Origin: Aurantiacibacter odishensis
GTDB lineage: Bacteria > Pseudomonadota > Alphaproteobacteria > Sphingomonadales > Sphingomonadaceae
Direction of reading: 5' to 3'
NCBI RefSeq assembly: GCF_003605195.1
Contig: NZ_QYOS01000023.1
Location: forward strand, 124,001-188,000
DNA: 64,000 nt
The translations under genes and the position numbers were made by a program. The notes under the pieces were generated by a model that had not been told where the DNA came from, searched no databases, and was given only the letters and a program-made list of their open reading frames with translations. Position 1 is the first letter of the stretch, and the number at the start of each line of letters is the position of its first letter. This document shows, in pieces, positions 15,953 through 34,415 of this stretch.

Positions 15953-16382
15953 CGCATGTGCAAAAGAAGCCGCGAGGTCTTGCGGCTAAGTGTAGGGAAT
16001 CTCGCGATTCGCGAGACTGTCACAAAACTATCGTTATTTTTCAAATATATGAACGGAAGTCTGCGGCCTTGCGCGCTGTCAATGACCATTTTTTGAAATT
16101 ATTTGGGCGGGCAGTCTTGAGGTTCCCAAGCAGTCCTTCATAACAGTCTTCCGGCCGCGACGCATGCCGTCGCAGCCATCAACAAACGAGTTATCAACGG
16201 GGGCACCGGTGGGCGCAGCATGCGTTCACGGGACGGGGGTCGTTTTGCCTTCTGTTGGTAGCATTCACGCGACGTCGGGCAGGCCGGCATTCGTTCTTTT
16301 TTGGGGTTGGTAAAAGATGATCCGGATGGGACCGCACAGCGGGCGCGGCAACGCAGCGAAAAATGAGGATGCAGAAAAGAAT
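15953..16382. other. Intergenic region upstream of dnaA
   Basis: No gene is seen in this ~430-bp stretch. It is locally AT-rich (about 16020-16050 and 16088-16105). It holds a perfect palindrome TCTCGCG-ATT-CGCGAGA (16000-16016) with a GATTC (GANTC) site at its centre, and one GTTATCAAC motif near 16190-16200, one or two mismatches from a DnaA box. This is presumably the dnaA promoter and leader. With only one weak DnaA-box-like site I do not call it the origin. An in-frame ATG at 16317 could extend DnaA by 22 residues. Confidence 0.5.
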
Positions 16383-17786
16383 ATGGAAGAGCAGGAAGCG
16401 ATCGATCTCGCGGCGGACTGGGCTGACATCAGCCAGGGGCTGCGAAAGGATCTCGGGCACCAGCTCTTCACCCAGTGGATCAAGCCGATCCAGCTGGGCA
16501 AGCTGAACCACGAAACCGGCACGCTGGACCTGTTCCTGCCCACGCAGTTCTCCGCCGACTGGGTCGAGGACCGCTATCACGATCGTCTCTCGCTCGCATG
16601 GAAGATCGCCAGCAGCGACGTGCGCCACATTGCCATCAAGGTGCATCCCGGTCGCCGCAAGATCGCCGACCTTGACCTGCGCGGCCATGATGGTTTCGGC
16701 CATCGCGCCGCCAACGATGCCAGCCTGGCGATGGAATCGATCGGCGACGATGGCTTCACGGCCAGCGTGGGCCTTGATCCGTCGCAGACCTTCGTTTCCT
16801 TCGTCACCGGCAGCACCAACGTGCTGGCGAAGAACGCAGCGGAGCGCATGGCCAAGGCGGAAAAGCCGCAGTTCAGCCCGCTCTACCTGAAAGCCGCCAC
16901 CGGCCAGGGCAAGACGCACCTGCTACACGCCATCGGTCACGCCTACCTGCAGACGCACCCTCGGGCGCGCATCTTCTACTGCAGCGCCGAGCGGTTCATG
17001 GTGGAATTCGTCCAGGCGCTGAAAGCCAACGAGATGATGGAGTTCAAGTCTCGCCTGCGCGGGTTCGACCTGCTGCTGGTGGACGATATCCAGTTCATCA
17101 TCGGCAAGGCATCTGCGCAGGAAGAGCTGCTCTACACGATCGACGCACTGCTGGCCGAGGGCAAGCGGCTGGTCTTCGCCGCCGACCGCGCGCCGCAGGC
17201 GCTCGACGGCGTGGAACCGCGCCTCCTCTCGCGCCTGTCGATGGGCCTTGTTGCCGATATCCAGCCTGCCGACATCGAACTGCGCCGCGCGATTCTCGAG
17301 TCGAAGCTGACCAAGTTCGCCCCGCTCGAAGTGCCCGGCGACGTGATCGATTTCCTCGCCCGCACCGTGTCGCGCAACGTGCGTGAACTGGTGGGCGGCC
17401 TCAACAAGCTGATCGCCTATGCCCAGCTGACCGGGCAGGAAGTTTCGCTGCAACTGGCTGAGGAACAGCTTACCGATATCCTCTCGGCCAACCGCCGCCG
17501 TATCACCATCGACGAGATCCAGCGCACGGTCTGCCAGTTTTACCGTATCGACCGCGCCGAAATGTCCTCCAAGCGCCGCGCCCGCGCCGTCGTGCGTCCG
17601 CGCCAGGTGGCCATGTATCTCGCCAAGGTGCTGACCCCGCGCAGCTATCCCGAAATCGGCCGCAAGTTCGGGGGGCGCGATCATTCCACGGTGATCCACG
17701 CGGTGCGCCTGATCGAGGACCTGCGCCAGCGTGATGCCGACATGGACGGCGACGTACGCAGCCTGTTGCGGCAACTGGAGAGTTAG
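16383..17786 (+). CDS. dnaA: Chromosomal replication initiator DnaA
   Basis: AAA+ initiator that binds oriC and opens DNA. Domain I begins at DLAADWADISQGLRKDLGH. The AAA+ domain shows an unusual P-loop region, KAATGQGKTHLLHAIGHAY, with Walker B LLVDDIQFIIGK and sensor regions. Domain IV has the DnaA-box-binding helix-turn-helix FGGRDHSTVIHAVRLIE. From the ATG at 16383 it is 467 residues; a start at 16317 would give 489. I prefer 16383 because the conserved N-terminus starts right after it, but neither start has a strong Shine-Dalgarno sequence. A 97-bp structured repeat begins 11 bp after the stop. Confidence 0.96.
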   Translation: MEEQEAIDLAADWADISQGLRKDLGHQLFTQWIKPIQLGKLNHETGTLDLFLPTQFSADWVEDRYHDRLSLAWKIASSDVRHIAIKVHPGRRKIADLDLRGHDGFGHRAANDASLAMESIGDDGFTASVGLDPSQTFVSFVTGSTNVLAKNAAERMAKAEKPQFSPLYLKAATGQGKTHLLHAIGHAYLQTHPRARIFYCSAERFMVEFVQALKANEMMEFKSRLRGFDLLLVDDIQFIIGKASAQEELLYTIDALLAEGKRLVFAADRAPQALDGVEPRLLSRLSMGLVADIQPADIELRRAILESKLTKFAPLEVPGDVIDFLARTVSRNVRELVGGLNKLIAYAQLTGQEVSLQLAEEQLTDILSANRRRITIDEIQRTVCQFYRIDRAEMSSKRRARAVVRPRQVAMYLAKVLTPRSYPEIGRKFGGRDHSTVIHAVRLIEDLRQRDADMDGDVRSLLRQLES

Positions 17787-17796
17787 TTTGTCTCAT

Positions 17797-17893
17797 GAAC
17801 CCGCATCCGCGGGTTCGTCCTCGCTCGACGCGCAGCATAGCTGCGCCCGCTGCGGGCGGGCGTTCGCCCTTGCGGTCGGCTGATCGCCGACCG
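17797..17893 (+). repeat. 97-bp structured repeat, copy A (downstream of dnaA)
   Basis: Chain of hairpins: GAACCCGC/GCGGGTTC (17797-17816), the constant CGTCCTCGCT, GCGCAGC/GCTGCGC (17830-17846), the constant core GCTGCGCCCGCTGCGGGCGG, a small GGGCG/CGCCC hairpin, the constant CCTTGCGG, and a last stem CGGTCGGC/GCCGACCG (17873-17893). A second copy of identical length lies at 34175-34271 on the other strand. Both copies read in the same direction as the gene just upstream (dnaA, rpmH). More inverted repeats follow to about 18000: CGGTCGC/GCGACCG and GCGCGC/GCGCGC. There is no coding capacity and no T-run here. Confidence 0.8.
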
Positions 17894-18050
17894 GTTCACG
17901 CGCAATTGTGAAATTTGGCCGAAGTCTCGGTCGCCATCAGCGACCGACAGCGCGCGAATTGCGCGCCGCCCGGTAGGGCGAAAGCCAAGTGAGCGGACGC
18001 GAACGCCGGCGCTTGAGGCCGAAGCAAAAAGAGTCCAACAGGGCTGTCCA

Positions 18051-18836
18051 ATGAGCGACACCCCCCACCCCCTCTCCGAAGAACGGCTCGACCGCTTCGC
18101 GCGCCACATCGTGCTGCCCGAGATCGGCGGCGCGGGTCAGGCGGCGCTCTCTCGCGCCCATGTCGTGCTGGTGGGCCTGGGCGGGATCGGTGCACCGGCA
18201 CTGCAATACCTTGCGGGCGCCGGGATCGGGCAACTGACCCTGATCGACGACGACAAGGTCTCGGCCAGCAACCTCCAGCGTCAGACGATCTACACCACCC
18301 GCGATATCGGCCACGGCAAGGCTGTTTCCGCGCGGCGATGGCTCGCCAATTTCGACGAGAAGCTGACCGTCAGCATCCACGACCGGCGCATCACCCCGGA
18401 CAATGTCGGCGCGCTGGTCGAAGGCGCGGACCTCGTGCTGGACGGCACCGACAACTTCGCCACCCGCCTCGCCGTATCCGACGCCTGCGTTGCAGCAGGC
18501 GTGCCCCTGCTCTCCGCCGCCGTGGGCCGGTTCCAGGGCCAGGTCGGCGCCTTTGCCGGGCACCGGGCGGATCAGCCGTGCTACCGCTGCTTCGTGGGCG
18601 ATGCCTTCGATGCCGAGGATTGCGACACCTGCGCCGAGGACGGCGTGCTGGGCGCGATGGTCGGCTGGGTCGGCACTTTCGCCGCGATGCAGGCGATCCG
18701 CCTGCTGGTGAGCGGCAGCGGTGGAATGGGCGATCCGCAATATGGCAAGCTGCACCTGATGGACGGCCTCAAACCCGGAATGCGAACGCTCGCCATCGCC
18801 AAGGATCCGGCGTGCAACGCGTGCTCGGCGGTCTGA
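18051..18836 (+). CDS. ThiF/MoeB/HesA-family adenylyltransferase (E1-like)
   Basis: 261 residues. Adenylates the C-terminal Gly of a small sulfur carrier (MoaD or ThiS) as the first step of sulfur transfer for molybdopterin or thiamine. The Rossmann start VVLVGLGGIGAPALQYLAGAG, acidic strand end LIDDDKVSASNLQRQ, DGTDNFATR, and two zinc CxxC pairs (CYRC and CNAC near the C-terminus) are present. There is no C-terminal rhodanese domain, as in bacterial MoeB. No moaD or thiS neighbour is visible, so I cannot choose between MoeB and ThiF. Confidence 0.85.
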   Translation: MSDTPHPLSEERLDRFARHIVLPEIGGAGQAALSRAHVVLVGLGGIGAPALQYLAGAGIGQLTLIDDDKVSASNLQRQTIYTTRDIGHGKAVSARRWLANFDEKLTVSIHDRRITPDNVGALVEGADLVLDGTDNFATRLAVSDACVAAGVPLLSAAVGRFQGQVGAFAGHRADQPCYRCFVGDAFDAEDCDTCAEDGVLGAMVGWVGTFAAMQAIRLLVSGSGGMGDPQYGKLHLMDGLKPGMRTLAIAKDPACNACSAV

Positions 18837-34174: not shown

Positions 34175-34271
34175 CGGGCTCCGAAAGGAGCCCGCAAGGC
34201 CAAATGGCCGCCCGCAGCGGGCGCAGCTTGCCTGCGCGCCTAGCGAGGACGCTCGCCCGGAGGGGCGAGCG
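34175..34271 (-). repeat. 97-bp structured repeat, copy B (between rpmH and rnpA)
   Basis: Read on the minus strand it has CGCTCGCCC/GGGCGAGCG, the constant CGTCCTCGCT, GCGCAG/CTGCGC, the 20-base core identical to copy A, a GGCC/GGCC hairpin, CCTTGCGG, and a final CGGGCTCC/GGAGCCCG stem followed by GTTTT, which looks like a terminator. The first and last stems share no sequence with copy A yet pair fully, and total length is the same 97 bp. It lies 9 bp after the rpmH stop and inside the rpmH-rnpA transcript. Confidence 0.8.
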
Positions 34272-34280
34272 GAGAGCGAA

Positions 34281-34415
34281 TCAAGCAGACAGCTTCTTGC
34301 GACCGCGACGACGGCGGTTGCGCAGCACCTTGCGGCCACCCGGGGTAGCCTTGCGGGCGAAGAAACCGTGGCGACGGGCACGCACGAGGTTGCTCGGCTG
34401 GAAAGTGCGCTTCAT
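34281..34415 (-). CDS. rpmH: 50S ribosomal protein L34
   Basis: 44 residues, beginning [23 protein letters not shown] by its landmarks MKRTFQPS and RRHGFFAR, ending [10 protein letters not shown]. This is the very basic, unmistakable L34 sequence. It is first in the operon with rnpA, yidD, yidC and engB. A hairpin with a T-run lies in its leader at 34441-34468. Confidence 0.97.

Follow-up and report, generated by a model that had tools for sequence, protein, structure and literature searches.

Paired palindromic DNA repeats behind stop codons in Aurantiacibacter and its relatives: a probably mobile, REP/BIME-like family

Several families of small palindromic repeats have been described that resemble the elements analyzed here. 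According to the passages of Di Nocera et al. (2013, PMC3733652) on which we draw, CGTC- and GTAG-tagged REPs are palindromic, dispersed sequences that lie beside gene 3' ends, between convergent or codirectional genes; in S. wittichii, most REPs between convergent genes are located less than 20 bp from the gene 3' ends. These REPs often form inverted dimers, with heterodimers preferred in some families, and have variable, complementary stems, and mixed REP pairs have been suggested to escape hairpin nucleases. The same passages state that CGTC families predominate in alphaproteobacteria and have no dedicated transposase, and they treat as an open question how palindromic repeats that lack a transposase, the CGTC type included, spread in alphaproteobacteria. 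REPINs and BIMEs, as presented in the excerpts used of PMC3116915, PMC2817692, and PMC8266576, are inverted pairs of hairpins that are thought to be mobilized as folded single-stranded DNA and that are associated with RAYT (TnpA-REP) transposases. Bacterial MITEs, such as ERIC, RUP, and NEMIS, are also named in the consulted parts of PMC3733652.

The window, i.e., the whole stretch of 64,000 nucleotides of Aurantiacibacter odishensis that was analyzed, contains two 97-nt copies of a structured repeat, at 17797 to 17893 (+ strand; copy A) and 34175 to 34271 (- strand; copy B), as the initial annotation had reported. It had also described constant blocks common to both copies (CGTCCTCGCT, GCGCAG, GCTGCGCCCGCTGCGGGCGG, and CCTTGCGG) and first and last hairpins that are fully paired in each copy with arms that differ between A and B, and both descriptions are accurate; the first-hairpin arms are GAACCCGC/GCGGGTTC and CGCTCGCCC/GGGCGAGCG. 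We consider, with a probability of roughly 0.72, that the copies represent a family of non-autonomous, mobile, REP/BIME-like palindromic DNA repeats of Erythrobacteraceae. The features of the two sites are as follows.

16317 to 17786, + strand: dnaA, whose stop codon adjoins copy A (TIGR00362, 481.5 bits; cut-off, 343.9)
17787 to 17796, + strand: T-rich end (TTTGTCTCAT) of copy A, separating the first hairpin from the dnaA stop codon (17784 to 17786)
17797 to 17816, + strand: first, variable hairpin of copy A with an ATCC loop, starting 10 nt past the dnaA stop codon
17817 to 17893, + strand: class-1 core of copy A (GTCCTCGCT, H2, H3, H4, CTTGCGG) and last hairpin H5
17928 to 18031, - strand: diverged, inverted class-3 partner half of copy A (class-3 entry L001:1564-1692:-)
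18051 to 18836, + strand: ThiF/MoeB-like adenylyltransferase gene past the copy A pair (family matches below curated cut-offs)
34175 to 34250, - strand: copy B from its class-1 core to the last hairpin, H5, then TTTTCG
34251 to 34270, - strand: first, variable hairpin of copy B with a CTCC loop, starting 10 nt past the rpmH stop codon
34271 to 34280, - strand: T-rich end (TTCGCTCTCC) of copy B, separating the first hairpin from the rpmH stop codon (34281 to 34283)
34281 to 34415, - strand: reading frame whose stop codon adjoins copy B and which we take to be rpmH, encoding ribosomal protein L34

The initial annotation lacked two of these features: the T-rich tract that separates the stop codon from the first hairpin and, at copy A, the inverted class-3 partner. 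The partner has a T-rich tract at its 18031 end, CTCAAGCGCCGG from 18017, and an H5-like hairpin at 17928 to 17946, and it lacks a fully paired variable hairpin. No partner half for copy B was seen in the host genome; a class-2 partner is present at the rpmH site of the relative G003. With up to three mismatches, the 20-base core occurs twice in the window, versus 0.19 occurrences expected, and two occurrences were reached in 1 of 100 shuffles. The fold z-scores of copy A were -3.01 on the named strand and -4.02 on the opposite strand, and those of copy B were -4.05 and -4.69, respectively. Since the opposite strand gave the stronger score for both copies, the named strand is not singled out by folding.

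Pattern searches of the host genome resulted, after reading of the matches, in 15 full and 2 truncated copies. At up to three mismatches, the core was found at 27 places, versus 9 for the reversed control, and a second, 18-nt pattern at 22 places, versus 25 for its control; as the latter pattern was no commoner than its control, only near-exact places were counted. A covariance model comprising five helices and 117 positions was built from 15 copies of the host genome, in which it then gave 30 matches at 23 places, one match overlapping another on the opposite strand. The model matched all 37 genomes of the genus (host included), with 2 to 51 matches per genome, and within the host's family at least 115 of 298 genomes and at least 52 of 96 genera, which are lower bounds because 12 candidates were scored per genome. 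Among 24 genomes from other families of the order, two contained one marginal match each (E values of 5.6e-4 and 9.5e-5), and a class-wide draw of 289 genomes gave four with E values of ≤1e-5, three within the host's family and a fourth that was marginal at 5.7e-6. The claim of a dispersed structured family, as opposed to a chance GC-rich region, is thus borne out by 30 matches in the host genome and by matches in all 37 genomes of the genus, and the covariance search of host and related genomes proposed as a check produced many matches, mostly intergenic and just downstream of genes.

A scan of a genome collection for the 18-nt block retrieved at least 113 stretches. Among the 80 matches listed, the named genera were chiefly Aurantiacibacter and Erythrobacter, with Qipengyuania occurring twice and Altererythrobacter once; further records among them were Sphingomonadaceae and alphaproteobacterial bins, and single records of Cohnella, Haloferax, and Zwartia are compatible with chance, given about 15 exact matches expected by our own estimate. 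Among those listed, the window was best matched by the genome of an uncultured member of the Sphingomonadaceae, at 87% over 3.3 kb, and by Aurantiacibacter sediminis. Two stretches labeled Gammaproteobacteria MAG Ww125 (L196 and L253) also carry the 18-nt block, possibly by binning contamination. At blastn sensitivity, copy B as a query had no match in plasmid and phage records. The whole window had 0 matches in Rfam at the gathering score, and at E values of ≤5 there were only weak ones, the best being sX5 (E value of 0.029; 19.6 bits versus 50 needed). Our literature searches found no paper that describes the 97-nt repeat family; the earlier statement that no described family is known agrees with both results. 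A survey from 2017 reportedly lists 224 candidate RNAs.

Three classes of modules were told apart by reading the flanks. Class 1 is the type of copies A and B, class 2 is marked by GTCCTCGGTGCTATTCGCT and GGCACCTGCGGGCG, and class 3 is marked by CCTCAAGCGCCGG and TTGGCTT and has a 5' part unlike those of the other two. An outward T-rich tract is present in all three classes, and the H4-CTTGCGG-H5 part is common to most modules. Class-1 and class-2 modules measure ~105 to 125 nt and are composed, in this order, of (i) an outward end near TTTGTTTT(T/G)C, (ii) a variable hairpin whose pairing is almost perfect and whose loop is NTCC, (iii) a class-specific core, (iv) a GSSC-NTTC-GSSC hairpin, and (v) CTTGCGG followed by a second variable hairpin. 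Among 113 copies there were at most 71 types of first hairpin, a few of which were misframed and a few common to many loci. In G003, foreign inverted-repeat stretches lie within the helix 2 loop or near helix 3, as if inserted (L176, L182, and L192).

Modules occur singly or in inverted pairs. In the first set of loci, 48 of the 51 cases of neighboring halves up to 330 bp apart were inverted with their tails outward, and 3 had both halves on one strand. The first hairpins of the 48 inverted pairs are 211 to 255 bp apart, and 47 of the pairs are of mixed class (24 of classes 1 and 2, 17 of classes 1 and 3, and 6 of classes 2 and 3), the remaining one joining two class-2 modules. The same-class share expected from the class counts is 39%, counts that are biased because the loci were collected via class 1. 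Mixed classes were also found in 38 of 39 pairs of a second set, which consists of the 80 listed of at least 113 stretches and may share species with the first. There, 40 of 79 class-1 halves had a partner (26 of class 2 and 12 of class 3, the remaining two being the halves of a single class-1 pair), and none was detected for the other 39. For 28 halves, the first hairpins of both partners were known, and in 2 of these they were identical. The loci examined also included two long tail-out pairs with space for a gene.

The position of the repeats relative to genes was analyzed using gene ends called by a codon-bias method of our own, which overlooks small genes, rpmH among them. The 121 halves in this count, obtained with looser detection and class labels than those of the pair count, comprise 50 between convergent genes, 27 in sense and 24 in antisense in codirectional gaps, 10 in gaps that look divergent (including that of copy B, since rpmH is overlooked), 5 inside called genes (some of these halves look falsely detected), and 5 at edges. 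In 61 of 77 halves, a distance of -5 to 20 nt separates the first hairpin, or the start of a class-3 half, from the stop codon of the nearest upstream gene in sense, and in 19 this distance is exactly 10 nt; the corresponding numbers for the second set were 60 and 20 of 77. A distance of 10 nt is the commonest in both sets and is also that of copy A from dnaA and of copy B from rpmH. The stop codons preceding the halves were TGA (34), TAG (27), and TAA (16). Distal halves mostly carry the T-tract without a preceding stop codon, indicating that the stop codon is not part of the repeat. At the repeat-bearing loci, which were chosen for holding the repeat, 279 genes without a repeat revealed no comparable peak in hairpin spacing: a perfect 8-bp hairpin was present within 60 nt of the stop codon in 29 of them, at 5 to 14 nt in 9.

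So sharp a spacing is more than avoidance of genes needs, and a function could underlie it. One rival explanation is a functional 3'-end RNA element, whose hairpin 10 nt past the stop codon would protect the mRNA 3' end or terminate transcription and whose classes would be interchangeable. It is an unlikely explanation in our view. The 10-nt value and the 50 halves between convergent genes favor it, and the count of such hairpins behind repeat-less genes (29 of 279) speaks against it. The dnaA flank bears on it in both directions. Among 28 genomes with a readable 3' flank, four carried a copy by model and patterns, namely, a class 1 and 3 pair like that of copy A in G013, a single class-1 module in G010, and class-3 modules in G007 and G005, and the 24 without a copy speak against this explanation. 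In G029 and G030, however, the flank contains a plain hairpin 9 nt past the stop codon and no repeat, as if an ordinary hairpin served the same slot; the dnaA pair occupies the place of this plain-hairpin spacer and is therefore not a simple split of it. Another inverted repeat, of the GAGCCTGTCGAAGG type, is found in the dnaA 3' region of three relatives (L135, L136, and L137).

Termination in particular is at odds with the arrangement of the T residues. The T-tract precedes the first hairpin, which is the wrong side for a terminator, and four or more T residues in the 6 nt past H5 were found in only 13 of 117 copies, copy B among them; the repeats are thus not a terminator family as a whole. 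A terminator scan requiring 5 T residues in 8 detected no terminator-like site in either copy region. The last hairpin of copy B is followed by TTTTCG, and G013, G011, and G003 retain it, followed by TTTTCG or TTTTTG, an observation in favor of a 3'-end element; although the scan did not call it, this hairpin is the strongest candidate for a transcript end that has been co-opted. Of the three possibilities initially raised, a transcript-end element, a small RNA, or a REP-like repeat, it is the last that is supported, and an end-of-transcript role may apply to single copies.

The initial annotation had interpreted changed bases with kept pairing as selection on RNA structure, and the mismatches in the stems do not support this. 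G-U pairs are tolerated in RNA, yet in the stems of the 117 copies other than helix 2 they were as frequent as A-C mismatches (45 versus 48; 18 and 19 in helix 1, 17 and 10 in helix 3, 3 and 0 in helix 4, and 7 and 19 in helix 5), and the first hairpins of the second set contained 2 G-U versus 9 A-C in 848 pairs. Helix 2, with 65 G-U versus 2 A-C, is the exception that an RNA element would lead one to expect; one pair supplies 48 of the 65, and at least in copy A an alternative register gives seven Watson-Crick pairs. In our own reading, the register that the model assigns to helix 2 may explain the excess. Cells changed on both sides numbered 53, versus a shuffle mean of 18, and exceeded all 500 shuffles, which is expected under the RNA and DNA readings alike; pairs changed on both sides numbered 11, versus 9.4, a value reached by 103 of 500 shuffles. 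We therefore rejected covariation as a proof of RNA selection on the G-U and A-C counts. First-hairpin variants recur at different loci, and those at orthologous sites are changed at two positions simultaneously, with compensation. The mismatch counts and hairpin variants fit DNA-level pairing and exchange of whole hairpins better than slow RNA compensation. The family is a warning that compensated stems alone do not prove a functional RNA.

To assess presence at orthologous sites, 13 loci of the host were searched in three close relatives (G013, G011, and G003), and 30 of 36 matches gave loci that were read. One site (L064) is empty in all three relatives. Two others are empty in G013 and G011 and occupied in G003, by a class 2 and 1 pair (L054) or by a class-1 copy in opposite orientation (L067), and at a further one (L061) no recognizable copy exists in G013 and G011. 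The L061 site of G003 holds a lone T-tract with one hairpin (L172, + strand, near 1443), possibly a relic half. An opposite-orientation class-1 copy is present in G013 at L057, and another class or first hairpin was found at the orthologous sites of L053, L060, and L070. All three relatives read hold a copy at the rpmH and L060 sites, and both relatives read for L070 hold one there; at L060 and L070, the first hairpins or the partner class differ. Being occupied in every relative read, these three sites look stable. Downstream of the class-2 copy at L072 is a stretch that looks like an SRP RNA gene.

Empty sites and T-rich outward ends on both halves might also indicate a classical MITE derived from an insertion sequence with a DDE transposase. 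Such an element would have TTTGTTTT as its terminal inverted repeats and would prefer short targets containing TA that, in genomes rich in GC, often coincide with stop codons. At L064, the empty site TTTTCTAGTCCC compares with flanks of CTAA and CTAT, i.e., a duplication of about 3 nt (CTA), and at L067 about 7 nt (TGGCTGA) are duplicated. Beyond these two loci, inspection by eye revealed no duplication, and a consistent one was not established; the ends are short and variable, half of the class-1 halves (39 of 79) have no detected partner, and just two long tail-out pairs in the loci examined have space for a gene. We thus regard a classical MITE as improbable. The codirectional gene junction at L067, next to a gene that is presumably hisH-like, is occupied in opposite orientations in two species (L067 and L188), with the 7-nt duplication in one. 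A family of trans-acting small RNA genes, to which conserved blocks, CTCC loops, and stable folds might point, is scarcely credible in view of the fixed position behind unrelated genes, the opposite strand that folds at least equally well, the patchy presence, and a promoter scan for sigma-70-like sites that found none in either copy region.

The reading as mobile, palindromic DNA repeats is directly supported by dispersal, patchy presence at orthologous sites, adjacency to stop codons, the near-absence of same-class pairs, and kept pairing with changing arms. We infer a mechanism in which an enzyme acting in trans would recognize the folded single strand and not the arm sequence, so that the hairpin arms could vary as long as pairing stays. 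Same-class pairs would form long perfect palindromes and be purged, as by DNA-hairpin nucleases, and insertions would persist at gene ends because nothing is broken there. A small number of copies, for instance copy B past rpmH, may since act as transcript ends. A RAYT/IS200 transposase was considered as the mobilizer and rejected: the Y1 transposase family PF01797, the one mobilizer family looked for, is absent from the host genome and from 34 of 37 genomes of the genus. The three genomes that contain it all carry the repeat, and the search control was positive in 5 of 14 genomes. This result weighs against the mobile-repeat reading, as do the lack of a consistent target duplication, the sites that look stable, the dnaA pair in the place of a plain-hairpin spacer, the sharp 10-nt spacing, and the G-U excess in helix 2. 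It is rather doubtful that the family is a stop-homing mobile repeat of which a strand is recognized by shape, arms are exchanged whole, two unlike classes are obligatory, and movement proceeds without a known REP transposase. The 10-nt stop spacing, the pairing of unlike modules, the changing yet paired hairpins, and the filled and empty sites in pairs of species provide testable facts.

As far as the cited parts of the literature describe these systems, the family shares features with each of them. Like the ERIC, RUP, and NEMIS MITEs, it falls within 70 to 300 bp, is noncoding and gene adjacent, folds strongly, and has inverted ends, its T-rich outward ends near TTTGTTTT(T/G)C being present on both halves; unlike them, it has interchangeable modules, and no parent insertion sequence or regular target duplication was found. 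The hairpin followed by a T-run that defines an intrinsic terminator is seen in the above-mentioned 13 copies and not in the family as a whole. With REPINs and BIMEs it has in common the inverted pairs of hairpins, whereas the host genome lacks the RAYT-type Y1 transposase of the REPIN/RAYT system. It resembles the CGTC REPs, as portrayed in the text of PMC3733652 used here, in placement, inverted pairing, and preference for heterodimers, with inversion in 48 of 51 cases of neighboring halves and a distance of -5 to 20 nt from a stop codon in 61 of 77 halves. In those accounts, CGTC- and GTAG-tagged REPs are single hairpins of 20 to 40 bp, whereas the halves described here are ~105 to 125 nt long with five hairpins, and the units match the five-helix model of 117 positions end to end. 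Judged against the description given in that text, the CGTC tag, the stem starting with AT, and the CCA-like tail also differ: here, the first hairpin is followed by the letters CGTC, most stems start with G, and a T-tract with a final C forms the outer end on the other side. The three module classes, each pairing almost solely with another class, are a further difference from CGTC REPs as depicted there. The nearest described kind is the REP dimer, that of the CGTC type in particular, but because size, module structure, and tail differ and neither the host genome nor most relatives have a RAYT-type gene, we do not class the family as a CGTC REP.
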